Shown here: positions 11,394 through 54,693 of the stretch, one piece after another
Numbering within the stretch: the first letter of the stretch is position 1
Layout: the number at the start of each line of letters is the position of its first letter
Source: Armatimonadota bacterium
Lineage (GTDB): Bacteria > Armatimonadota > Fimbriimonadia > Fimbriimonadales > Fimbriimonadaceae
Assembly (NCBI GenBank): GCA_017303935.1
Contig: JAFLBD010000002.1
Location: 682,001-746,000, forward strand
Length of the DNA stretch: 64,000 bases
Reading direction: 5' to 3'
Made by a program: the position numbers and the translations under genes
Notes under the pieces: generated by a model
Database searches by the model: none
The model's input: the letters and a program-made list of their open reading frames with translations, nothing else
What the model was told of the DNA's origin: nothing

Positions 11394-11746
11394 GGGGGCG
11401 AACGGGTTCGACAGGGCTGGTTCGACTTAGAGTTGCGAGCCGAGGCGCCGCTGGCCTCGTAAAAAGCGGCAAAAAAATAACTGCAAACAACAACTTTGCA
11501 TACGCTGCTTAATTAAGCACGTCATCGAGCTGACGCCAGCCGTAAGCGTTAGAATCCGGTGTGATCAAATACGGATCGTTTCGTGAGCTTCTGTTCGTAG
11601 CAAGCGCGACTAAATAAACCGAACTGGGCAAGAAGTCAGCCGGCCCCTGGAGAGACTTCTGCCGAGACCAAGTAACGGGGAGACGCTCGTGGTAATTTTG
11701 AGGGCGACAGTTTTGGAACGGGGTTCAATTCCCCGCGCCTCCACCA
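11394..11746 (+). ncRNA. ssrA: Transfer-messenger RNA (tmRNA), one-piece
   Basis: tmRNA rescues stalled ribosomes and tags the unfinished protein for proteolysis. The 5' GGGGGCG (11394-11400) pairs with CGCCTCC (11736-11742), followed by discriminator A and an encoded CCA (11744-11746). The tRNA-like domain has the expected T-arm GGTTCAATTCC. The tag frame starts at GCA 11483 and ends at TAA 11510-11512, encoding ANNNFAYAA, preceded by the alanine brought by tmRNA itself. The hydrophobic -A-A ending is the usual protease signal. The total is 353 nt, a normal size. Confidence 0.95.
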
Positions 11747-22049: not shown

Positions 22050-22557
22050 AGCGCATGGCCACGTTTACGACGGATAAGAGCGCTGAAATCACCGTCACCA
22101 CAATCGCGACTGTTTTCAAGGTGCTTCCGGAAGGATTTCCACGTGCGATTTCTTTATCTGCACCTTTGATCGCCAAGTAGCCGAAGATTGGCCAGCAGCA
22201 GCACAAGGTCAGTACGATGAACGCGTAAACCTTGTTCGTCTCGGATGGCGAATTATCTATTGGTCCACCCATTGGACCTCGTGGATATGGTGCGCCTCCA
22301 CCTGATGGTTGATTGGAGAATGCGCCTGGTGCCGACGGTGCTTGATAGGATGGTGGGTTGCTCGGCATTTGAGTTACCGGCTTGGGAACATTTAGTCCTG
22401 GCACATCCGCACCCATTACGCGCGCACCGGTGGCCGCGTCTTCGAGCTGGGTCTGAGCGGTCACGCGCCCTTCCAACGCCCACTGATTCAACGTCGCCAA
22501 GTCGGCTGGGCCATATTTTTGCCCTGTCGCCATATCCACAACAAAATACTGATTCAT
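22024..22557 (-). CDS. GYF_2-domain membrane protein (DUF4339/CD225-like)
   Basis: The 177-aa protein has an N-terminal GYF_2 domain (Y-F-V-V-D-x-x-x-G-x-x-Y-G-P-A-D-L-A-T-L-x-x-W, residues 4-25). A Pro/Gly/Gln-rich linker follows, then two membrane helices with a C-C-C-W-P-I-F-G-Y-L motif as in CD225/dispanin-type proteins. I chose ATG 22557 because GAGGGGAC lies just upstream and because the longer frame (to 22695) runs into the palindromic repeat. Such proteins are common but of unknown function, possibly membrane scaffolds. Confidence 0.75.
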   Translation of the reverse strand: MNQYFVVDMATGQKYGPADLATLNQWALEGRVTAQTQLEDAATGARVMGADVPGLNVPKPVTQMPSNPPSYQAPSAPGAFSNQPSGGGAPYPRGPMGGPIDNSPSETNKVYAFIVLTLCCCWPIFGYLAIKGADKEIARGNPSGSTLKTVAIVVTVISALLSVVNVAMRFSQGGLGR

Positions 22558-22641
22558 GTTTTGAGTCCCCTCTGGGTTCAAGACGCAACAACACTCAAGT
22601 TGGATGCACGCCGACTCGATGCTTGGGAATTGGGCGAGATT

Positions 22642-22714
22642 CTGACCGCACCTCCCCGAGGCCACGCCCTCGTGGGATTCGCTCCGCTCCCCCACTCCGC
22701 CTCGGTGCGGTCAG
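22642..22714. repeat. 73-nt palindromic repeat, copy 1
   Basis: This is an imperfect hairpin with outer arms CTGACCGCA / TGCGGTCAG, a second stem CCGAGG / CCTCGG and an inner stem GTGGG / CCCAC. An element of identical length and layout lies at 54025-54097. The conserved core (CACCTCCCCGAGGCCACGC) is identical, while the stem bases differ in a paired way. It lies between the GYF_2 gene start and the HEPN-like gene end. The rest of the 22558-22846 gap shows nothing else clear. Confidence 0.85.
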
Positions 22715-22846: not shown

Positions 22847-23719
22847 CTACATTGCGGTTTTGCTTGGCGTCGAAGTCAATTCACTCCATCGCTGGTCCGC
22901 AAAATTCGCAAATCTGAGGAGGAGAATCAGAGCAGTAAATGCCTCGTCCTCTGACAAGGCGGTGTTGGCACCATGTGCTGACTCGTCTCGCCAATAGTGG
23001 AGCAGGCCAGTGTAGTTCGCAAGACTGCTGGTTACAACACCATTTTGATTTGCAAGTATGATTCGTTCGATTTTGCTTCTCCCGCTTCCAGTTCGATATT
23101 GCTTTAGGACTTCTTCTTCGTTTCCAAGTCTCGCAATGGCAAGAGCAAGCAGGATAGATTCCGTCGCCGCTCCACACATTGCGCAACATGCAAAGTAAAT
23201 TCTCGCCTGATAGCATGCCAGGGCCTCCTTGCTTCTCGTGAAAAACCCACTTCCAAATCTGGTTGAGTGAGAATAGAGCAATTGTGAGAATCTACTATGT
23301 TCATTGGGTAAACACTCATGCAAATTAGTTTCAGATAACCATTTGCGACCAAACTCCGTGATCGAGAAGTCTGCCCCGATTGTGCGTGTTGAAACTTGTC
23401 CGTTGTCCTGCATTGGATAACTTGGATTCGGACTTAGCACGCCGCGAAGTACAAGGTGCCAGGCTGCGGCATAAAGTGGTTCTGAGTTTTTCTTTAAATC
23501 GGTTCGTGCTGAGAACATTCCTTGACCCGAGTGCTCCTTTCGAAGCCTCTCGAATTGCTCATCGCACAATAGTTTTACAACTTCTGGAATATACAGGTCG
23601 GCAGATGATGAAAAACGCGAATTGGTCCCAACTTGAAGGCATCGACTTCGAAGAAATGTTATTACATGGACCAGGGCACATTCTTCGGAGAGTTCCGGCA
23701 AATGAATTGTCAAGTGCAT
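22847..23719 (-). CDS. HEPN-like protein of unknown function
   Basis: The 290-aa protein has a possible winged-helix wing at about residues 118-130 (F-S-I-T-E-F-G-R-K-W-L). A helical C-terminal region carries R244-D-E-S-A-H249, matching the R-x4-H motif of HEPN ribonucleases. The paired long helices before it (residues about 166-198 and 232-275) suit a HEPN/DUF4145-like fold. The gene is more AT-rich than its surroundings and sits between a palindromic repeat and tRNA-Ser, so it may be a transferred accessory (defence or toxin) gene. Family membership is inferred from the motif and helix pattern only. TAAAAT lies 6 nt before the ATG. Confidence 0.55.
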   Translation of the reverse strand: MHLTIHLPELSEECALVHVITFLRSRCLQVGTNSRFSSSADLYIPEVVKLLCDEQFERLRKEHSGQGMFSARTDLKKNSEPLYAAAWHLVLRGVLSPNPSYPMQDNGQVSTRTIGADFSITEFGRKWLSETNLHECLPNEHSRFSQLLYSHSTRFGSGFFTRSKEALACYQARIYFACCAMCGAATESILLALAIARLGNEEEVLKQYRTGSGRSKIERIILANQNGVVTSSLANYTGLLHYWRDESAHGANTALSEDEAFTALILLLRFANFADQRWSELTSTPSKTAM

Positions 23720-23939: not shown

Positions 23940-24027
<88 letters not shown>

Positions 24028-52479: not shown

Positions 52480-52554
52480 GGTCGATTAGCTCAGTGGTAG
52501 AGCACTACAATGACACTGTAGGGGTCACAGGTTCAAGTCCTGTATCGACCACCA
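52480..52554 (+). tRNA. tRNA-Val (anticodon GAC)
   Basis: The acceptor GGTCGAT (52480-52486) pairs with ATCGACC. The anticodon stem CTACA/TGTAG encloses loop ATGACAC (anticodon GAC). The T-arm has GGTTCAAGTCC. Discriminator A and CCA (52552-52554) are encoded. Size 75 nt. Confidence 0.95.
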
Positions 52555-53221: not shown

Positions 53222-53356
53222 TTCTGAATTGCTTCGAATGAACCGATGCTAAGACCGGGTTCACTTGCAGTGTACGATTGCACTTGCCATGCTGTTACTC
53301 GAAATTGCAGAATTGGGCTAGAAACCGTCCTGGTTTGTGGTCGTCATAATGAAACG

Positions 53357-54007
53357 ATGCTCACCACACTTCTTCTTGGAGCCGTTGATAACACCGAAGT
53401 CCGAACCCTCAAAGTCAACGGAATTCTCGATACCCAAGGCACCACAACCATTACTCGCACGATTAAGCCTTATGGCGAAATGAGCTATGTGATCCATGAC
53501 AATTGGGGGAAGAACGACACCTGGACAGAAACGCTGGTACAAAGCGATGCTTCGGTGTTGTTGCAGCACTCGTTCAAGTGGGTCAAGCCCAAGGGTAACA
53601 ACTCTCTGTGGAGCACAAAGATTGTCGATGGAGTGGCACAGTGGCGCGCGGAAGAATACGAGGGCGAGGCCATTGAGGGTGGGTGGCGCGCGACAAAACT
53701 GTCGGCTGGCGCCGTCGGAGATGCTTCCCTGTGGTGGTGGAGCTTGGTTGCTCCGAAAACAGGCGATAAGGTCGAGCGCAATCGGTTCGTCCCAATGTTT
53801 GGCTATGAATCGGAGGTCGTCACCTATCTGGGAGATAGCGAACTGACCTTTGGTGCCACTTCGGTCAACACGCACAAAGTCCAGCGGAGCTCACCCACTC
53901 TGACCTTGATCGTATGGTTGGATGATGTGGGCATGCCGCTCCGGAGAGAATTCTATCGATCGGGGAGCTCTTCCATTCATCGCGCAGATGTCTGGGTTCA
54001 AAAGTAA
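53357..54007 (+). CDS. Hypothetical beta-rich protein (216 aa)
   Basis: The protein has alternating short strands rich in Trp, Thr and Gly (W-W-W-S-L-V-A-P, L-T-L-I-V-W-L-D-D-V-G-M-P-L-R-R-E), consistent with a beta barrel or lipid-binding type fold. I chose ATG 53357 because CATAAT lies 6 nt before it. A longer frame from 53246 has a Cys-rich, non-homologous-looking extension. No family is recognised. Confidence 0.55.
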   Translation: MLTTLLLGAVDNTEVRTLKVNGILDTQGTTTITRTIKPYGEMSYVIHDNWGKNDTWTETLVQSDASVLLQHSFKWVKPKGNNSLWSTKIVDGVAQWRAEEYEGEAIEGGWRATKLSAGAVGDASLWWWSLVAPKTGDKVERNRFVPMFGYESEVVTYLGDSELTFGATSVNTHKVQRSSPTLTLIVWLDDVGMPLRREFYRSGSSSIHRADVWVQK

Positions 54008-54024: not shown

Positions 54025-54097
54025 CTCGACGCACCTCCCCGAGGCCACGCCCTCGCGGAGGTCGCTTCGCTCCTCCGCTCCGCCTCGGTGCGTCGAG
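54025..54097. repeat. 73-nt palindromic repeat, copy 2
   Basis: Outer arms are CTCGACGCA / TGCGTCGAG, the second stem is CCGAGG / CCTCGG and the inner stem is GCGGAG / CTCCGC. Copy 1 is at 22642-22714. The element opens a 350-nt gene-free stretch (54008-54357) whose only other content I can name is the promoter of the arsR gene. A short frame across it (54014-54268) is not a gene. Confidence 0.85.
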
Positions 54098-54357: not shown

Positions 54358-54693
54358 ATGGCATCCGACAAACTGAGCCTCATCTTCTCGGCGTTGGCCG
54401 ATCCGACTCGGCGAGCGATCTTGGCTGCGTTGGCCCTCGGTCCGCTTCCTGTGGGCGAGATCGCCAAGCCGTTTGACATCACGGAACCGGCGGTGATCAA
54501 GCATCTCAAGGTGCTGGAGCGGGCTGGGCTTGTGGAGACTGACCGGAAAGGTCAGACTAGGCCACGCCAGCTCAACGCTGCGCCTCTGGCCGAAGCGAAT
54601 AGCTGGGTCGAACAGTATCGGCAGTATTGGGAAGCGAGCTTCGACCGCTTGGATGCCTATCTCGATTCAATTCAATCTGGAGAACAATCATGA
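54358..54693 (+). CDS. ArsR-family transcriptional regulator (module 1)
   Basis: The 111-aa winged-helix protein has the recognition region I-T-E-P-A-V-I-K-H-L-K-V-L-E-R-A-G-L-V. The opening A-L-A-D-P-T-R-R-A-I-L-A-A-L is the mark of ArsR repressors paired with SRPBCC proteins. The cysteines of metal-sensing ArsR proteins are absent, so the signal is likely not a metal. It overlaps the following SRPBCC gene by 4 nt (ATGA). Confidence 0.9.
   Translation: MASDKLSLIFSALADPTRRAILAALALGPLPVGEIAKPFDITEPAVIKHLKVLERAGLVETDRKGQTRPRQLNAAPLAEANSWVEQYRQYWEASFDRLDAYLDSIQSGEQS

Follow-up and report, generated by a model that had tools for sequence, protein, structure and literature searches.

Two copies of a 73-nt palindromic element in an Armatimonadota genome have stems that differ in sequence yet remain perfectly paired, which raises the question of whether such paired changes are maintained by an RNA, by a folded DNA, or by the way in which the DNA itself is copied. 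We addressed this question in a 64,000-nt stretch (the window), G000:C2:682001-746000, of a source genome (G000) of 2,557,500 bases in 4 contigs. A sequence-only reading had located the element at 22642-22714 and 54025-54097, and both coordinates were borne out by the sequence; a direct-repeat scan of the window returned no family of 30 nt or longer other than these two copies. On the forward strand, copy 1 consists of the left arm of an outer stem (CTGACCGCACC, 22642-22652), a conserved core CCCGAGGCCACGCCC (22655-22669, with R at 22658), an inner hairpin GTGGG...CCCAC (22672-22695), a conserved YGCC (22698-22701), whose Y at 22698 pairs with the R at 22658 according to their covariation, and the right arm of the outer stem (GGTGCGGTCAG, 22704-22714). 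Likewise, copy 2 has the left arm CTCGACGCACC (54025-54035), the core CCCGAGGCCACGCCC (54038-54052, with R at 54041), an inner hairpin GCGGAGG...CCTCCGC (54055-54078), YGCC (54081-54084, with Y at 54081 pairing with R at 54041) and the right arm GGTGCGTCGAG (54087-54097). The core positions are invariant or near-invariant columns in the alignments A2 and A3 described below, and in copy 2 they are also matched by the covariance model R2. The paired stem differences noted earlier are real, as 11 of 11 positions in each outer stem form Watson-Crick pairs. The paired change of the inner stems also stands, except that the stem in copy 2 has 7 bp and not 6 (GCGGAGG/CCTCCGC, 54055-54061/54072-54078); the loops, which had been called identical, are not fully so (TCGCTCCGCTC versus TCGCTTCGCTC), although the conserved core is common to both copies. 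Each copy folds better than its dinucleotide shuffles on both strands (z of -2.2 to -3.0).

Copy 1 is flanked by bottom-strand ORFs at 22253-22594 (no match) and 22847-23719 (a weak DUF4145 match), and copy 2 lies 17 bases past the stop of the ORF at 53246-54007 (no Pfam match), with an ArsR-type regulator downstream (54358-54693). The window also encodes a tmRNA (11394-11746) and two tRNA genes (23943-24027 and 52480-52551). When the window was searched with R2, a covariance model built from 40 elements, all from other genomes, exactly these two copies were matched (E-values 1.1e-9 and 4.4e-8), and nothing else was found up to an E-value of 5. The presence of only two copies in the window could suggest chance palindromes or a simple recent duplication, but this explanation is refuted by the stem test on pattern-selected matches given below, and the independent R2 model and the differing stems also speak against it; we give it practically no weight.

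A pattern search allowing at most 3 mismatches identified 5 copies in the 2.56-Mb source genome, in agreement with blastn, which returned beyond these a single 16-nt chance match. All five (G000:C2 160531, 614831, 704649, 736032 and 922329) lie on the single 951-kb contig C2 of the 2.56-Mb genome, an arrangement with a chance probability of about 0.7%. Searching with a 24-base core and at most 3 mismatches, we found matches in 8 of 151 genomes, including 54 sites in one relative, G005; the structure is absent in two of the eight, G012 and G094. A 19-base core recovered 57 stretches in named records, namely, Fimbriimonadaceae Prado032 (46), UBA2017 (4), SZAS-2 (3), bin.224 (2), UBA2391 (1) and a Sumerlaeota MAG (1); judging by identical sequences, Prado032, UBA2017, bin.224, SZAS-2 and UBA2391 appear to be our G005, G006, G002, G029 and G059, respectively. 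At least 9 of 378 genomes were matched by another model, R1, with 12 candidates scored per genome, and this model found one copy in the Sumerlaeota genome. This MAG from a different phylum harbors a single full element (L058:7872-7970 / L163:1501-1599), beside a gene that we take to encode acetate kinase, and the copy may have arrived by horizontal transfer or by mis-binning.

A looser exact pattern matched 53 of 397 genomes, including 19 of the 85 Fimbriimonadaceae, and stem-bearing copies are present in 13 of these 19, and hence in 13 of the 85. Among the remaining six, G012, G034, G035, G040 and G055 fail the stem test, and G018 has the stem without CCC. Outside Fimbriimonadaceae the looser matches are mostly single and on par with the reversed-pattern control, and there were no matches in g20, the largest sister genus sampled. 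For the pattern GCCAMNCCCTCG-N-CTCYGCC, the outer stem score was at least 6 in 63 of the 74 Fimbriimonadaceae matches among the loci examined; none of the 11 matches belonging to other orders or phyla and none of the 111 on viral contigs reached it. We rejected a viral origin, as the 19-base core has 0 stretches in IMG/VR and none of those 111 looser viral matches has the stem; R2 applied to 41 of 120 viral stretches gave E-values of 0.13 or worse only. A plasmid origin was also rejected, since the plasmid search returned one half match, in Kitasatospora. The elements form a dispersed repeat family that, the Sumerlaeota copy aside, belongs to a little-studied bacterial family and is apparently undescribed. 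We found no description of it in the PMC open-access literature, whose silence is not proof; the terms "Armatimon" and "Fimbriimonas" are absent from the available portion of the RepRanger text (PMC12306157), as are "Armatimon", "Chthonomonas" and "Fimbriimonas" from that of PMC3733652.

The elements of this family share the order of a variable outer stem (6-21 bp), the conserved CCCRANGCCAMNCCC, a variable inner hairpin and the conserved YGCC. More specifically, from the core outwards they read CCC-R-AN-GCCA-MN-CCC(TC), then an inner hairpin that in most cases is closed by G-C, and (TC)-Y-GCC, all enclosed within the outer stem. In type 1, which includes the window copies and most of those in G005, the core is separated from the stem on either side by TC or similar bases; in type 2 the outer stem abuts the core directly, and more subtypes are present in G005. 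Several element subtypes recur in similar order in intergenic mosaics of G005 (L039, L050, L064 and L065), and in G029 a second, unrelated repeat (TGTCCCCGAGTTTGTCAGCG...GTGCTATGGGGCA) both interrupts an element and adjoins it (L159:2828-2961). Outer arms are highly diverse, with 63 distinct ones among 81 elements.

To quantify the pairing we used two alignments, A2 with 40 elements and A3 with 40 type-2 elements. Both sides change in 10 of the 11 outer-stem pairs of A2, where 94.5% of the cells are paired versus 38-46% in the slid control, and 109 cells are changed on both sides versus 29 after shuffling. In A3, 87.6% of the cells are paired versus 37-48% when slid, a figure that for the outer stem is partly so by construction because the rows were chosen for an outer-stem score of at least 8; the inner hairpin and the R-Y pair played no part in this choice. 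Double-sided changes occur in 275 cells of A3 versus 98.5 in shuffles. Two further measures are unexceptional, with 77 of 500 shuffles equally high in pairs showing any double change and 82 of 500 in further pair types; these shuffle tests are inflated by the relatedness of the rows, from which the slid control is free. RNAalifold recovered the same structure from A3 unprompted, including the R-Y pair. Among the 81 stem-selected elements this pair is G-C in 51 and A-T in 28, with 2 exceptions, and among the 74 pattern-selected matches, 67 have CCC in place, giving G-C 50, A-T 16 and G-T 1 (66 of 67 Watson-Crick). An inner pairing GAGGC/GCCTC suggested by A2 was rejected as it fits type 1 only; it is the R-Y pair that covaries across types. 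Positions 4-9 of the stem are 91-96% paired in the 81 stem-selected elements, yet arm identity is as low as 35-54% within groups, of which seven are single genomes (one being G005) and one pools the genus g30. In the outer stem, the R-Y pair and the inner hairpin alike, the two sides thus vary jointly to an extent far above the controls.

The sequence-only reading took such covariation to indicate selection on the folded form, as RNA or as single-stranded DNA. A structured RNA, be it a 3' UTR element, a small RNA or a ribozyme, would covary since it must fold, and a conserved internal loop with covarying stems and an R-Y pair is typical of structured RNAs. However, helices maintained as RNA pass through G·U, and the internal stem cells of A3 comprise 445 Watson-Crick pairs, 3 G·T, 11 A·C and 13 others, compared with 232 Watson-Crick, 18 G·T and 1 A·C in the acceptor and T stems of 21 distinct tRNAs from the same loci. 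The G·U share is thus 3/448 in the element stems versus 18/250 in the tRNAs, and wobble is far rarer than in tRNAs whichever strand is read (p = 2.6e-6 for the top, 0.0045 for the bottom), with the proviso that the element stems were partly picked by a mismatch-penalising scorer and the tRNA stems were taken at fixed positions. This near absence of G·U argues against selection on an RNA, less strongly for the bottom strand. On the other hand, A·C outnumbers G·T on the top strand; this imbalance, though mild (11 to 3, p = 0.057), corresponds to G·U on the opposite strand and leaves room for a bottom-strand RNA, so that any such RNA would more likely read GGCRGAG-hairpin-GAGGGNKTGGC. The retention of the element at orthologous loci while the flanks diverge (see below) also favors an RNA. 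Against it, the Rfam models did not match the element in any of five loci up to an E-value of 5, nor at gathering score within the window; the copies adjoin unrelated genes; and for a housekeeping RNA, the patchy distribution and the 54 sites in one genome would be odd. We therefore consider a structured RNA unlikely, though it deserves to be kept in view. Of the earlier claim, then, the RNA part has lost ground, and a single-stranded or cruciform DNA form is still compatible with the data.

Orthologous loci provide a more direct view of how the stems may arise. At two loci of genus g30, X and Y, the element is present in three of eight genomes (G066, G068 and G072) and absent from G033, G051, G061, G064 and G070. 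At locus X it follows a gene presumed to encode superoxide dismutase, and at locus Y it precedes a gene that we read as ychF. The outer stem and the core are kept among the locus X orthologs although the non-coding flanks hardly align, and the inner helix there has undergone four double changes, from CCGATCC to GGGATTT with a matching 3' side. This retention of the core at X and Y, while the neighboring non-coding DNA has changed, is more suggestive of a host function than of a dead selfish copy. The left arm at locus X in G072, ATTTTTTGTT, directly follows a terminator hairpin and acts as its T-tract; the element-free G061 has GGGATTTTTTGTTTTTTG in its place, that is, the same T-tract after the terminator, and the right arm in G072, AACAAAAAAT, is an inverted copy of the left one. 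The arm thus seems to derive from the target flank, which is suggestive rather than proof because this is one locus with a low-complexity T-tract; at locus Y neither arm was assignable. No empty site could be recognized for window copy 2 in congeners, where the flanks were too diverged and the element alone matched. The core is inverted between the same arms in the G005 composites L105 and L127. In addition, four left-arm-plus-core units stand in tandem in G005 (L034-L036, G005:C7 ~37.1-37.3 kb) with a period of about 54 nt, and only the last of the four carries the 3' (right) outer arm. Possible signs of template switching are one target-derived arm, two core inversions and the double changes at one ortholog, with the tandem array as a further hint of fold-back.

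These observations are best explained, with roughly an even chance of being right, by a family of non-autonomous DNA hairpins, dispersed yet lineage-restricted, with a REP-like lifestyle, whose core is recognized and whose stems are kept by fold-back copying. In this model, extrusion of the element as a hairpin, on the lagging strand or in a cruciform, would lay the core open on one strand, and a host or mobile-element protein would recognize it and thereby keep it conserved. Fold-back copying, i.e., template switching during replication, would make the stems and keep them perfect at the DNA level by copying flanking DNA into the opposite arm. Each site would then obtain its own outer stem, and double changes would appear without G·U intermediates. 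Travel between loci could involve a transposase, copying set off by a nuclease, or nothing more than template switching. Since the core is conserved amid rewritten DNA, recognition or function is required, and since the stems are perfect without G·U, so is a maintenance mechanism; a template-switching DNA hairpin accounts for both. The stems are rewritten yet perfectly paired probably because the DNA folds back and copies itself. Selection on RNA is not needed, as fold-back copying itself makes double changes, in keeping with the few G·U pairs, the target-derived arm and the inverted cores. A bolder version, which we consider a long shot, is a transposase-free DNA hairpin parasite, in which the core at a stalled fork, typically past a terminator, folds back and the polymerase reverse-copies the adjacent host DNA. 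If this is true, each new copy builds its outer stem from its landing site, and this is a mobile element spread by template switching, with RNA-like covariation as a by-product. A functional RNA is usually considered proven by paired stem changes; in this family, for which both filled and empty orthologous sites are at hand, nature provides an example of such changes that look DNA-made, and a lack of G·U can be used to tell this kind of covariation apart. It also points to a hairpin-binding protein in Fimbriimonadaceae.

Many copies lie beside transcription terminators, and some loci are filled where the orthologous loci of sister species are empty. Terminator-like hairpins occur within 87 nt on the left of 24 of 119 elements and, on the other strand, on the right of 17 of 119, compared with 27 of 556 control windows, and a T-run stands to the left of 26 of 121 elements and to the right of 3 of 121. 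In a list of 144 entries, 46 of them unusable, some elements listed twice and the gene calls crude, 93 placed entries are convergent (24), codirectional (56) or divergent (13), and 5 more lie inside called ORFs; we therefore rejected a strong orientation to genes, the bias being mild only. This enrichment downstream of genes and terminators might indicate a transcript-end structure, either a terminator or an mRNA 3' stabilizer, as the sequence-only reading had also proposed. However, the T-runs precede the element rather than follow it, unlike in an intrinsic terminator, whose GC hairpin has a T-run after it on the transcribed strand; the terminator scan found none at copy 2; and orthologous genes manage without the element. 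The proposal is weakened to the point of being improbable, as the elements tend to sit just downstream of terminators and not to form them.

As for mobility, a REP or REPIN of the GTAG/CGTC type moved by a RAYT would likewise be intergenic, palindromic and dispersed. However, there is no terminal tag, as the flanking 15 bases on each side of 71 elements carry -0.02 to 0.09 bits, and no Y1 transposase (PF01797) was found in G000, in the carriers G002, G005, G006, G029 and G059, or in G012, so that a RAYT was rejected as the mobilizer and this explanation is very improbable. The initial impression that the element matches no known REP type is thereby confirmed. PF01797 is present in 3 of 9 genomes searched, G001, G003 and G004, which are congeners of the window genome without the element. 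Nor did the gene families recurring near elements, which we take to be pilin-like proteins, oxidoreductases and PstB-like ABC proteins, offer a candidate for a linked mobilizer. Alternatively, the element might be a MITE or an IS derivative moved by a conventional, unidentified transposase, since 29 matches of a ~240-nt composite with the core in its middle (e.g., L104, L107 and L113) occur in the 54-copy genome, G005, placed 3' of genes and ending in the terminal inverted repeats GGGGCTGTCTCAAAAG/CTTTTGAGACAGCCCC, which resemble IS1182-type termini. But the core family occurs in other genera without these ends, the core element is variable at its outermost bases, unlike the terminal inverted repeats to which a transposase binds, and adjacent repeats of at least 4 nt, as expected of target-site duplications, flank 2 of 71 elements versus 0.7 expected by chance. 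Composites without the core were sought in G005, with no clean case and one reduced core (L130), and no transposition was observed. We hold this alternative to be doubtful.

The hairpin family is therefore REP-like in lifestyle and unrelated to REPs in sequence, with a conserved core between varying, almost perfectly paired stems, in dispersed copies. Among other fold-back DNAs, integron attC sites are recognized as folded single-stranded DNA, with free stem sequence and conserved pairing. Their outer core sites are constant and the inside varies, the reverse of the situation here. TMECO, an intrastrand triplex motif of E. coli, is also a short, conserved, intergenic fold-back DNA according to PMC4666352, but its consensus given there, CCCTCNCCC-N-GGGNGAGGG-N-GGGNGAGGG, is not seen by eye in the hairpin core. 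Template switching, known as quasipalindrome correction, is an established source of perfect stems and double changes: PMC8794818 and PMC8604942 describe how it can create or repair perfectly matched inverted repeats, change several bases on both sides at once and invert loops. It is, however, a mutational process that does not form a dispersed family and leaves the conserved core unexplained. The REPs and REPINs of the GTAG superfamily, with their RAYT/TnpA-REP, share the habit, being short, intergenic, dispersed palindromes able to form single-strand hairpins, and compensatory changes are on record for REPIN spacers in PMC3116915. However, REPs keep their ends and the GTAG tag constant, according to PMC8266576, whereas in the hairpin family the palindrome sequence is not conserved between copies, with constancy inside and variation at the ends, and there is neither a tag nor, in the carriers, a Y1 transposase; it is the REP architecture turned inside out. 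The CGTC-tagged REPs resemble it in that no dedicated transposase is known, but their stems measure 8-9 bp and carry a CGTC-type tag at the end. According to PMC3733652, some REP dimers are enclosed by palindromes for which no empty version was found, and outer stems built by fold-back copying may explain such cases as well.
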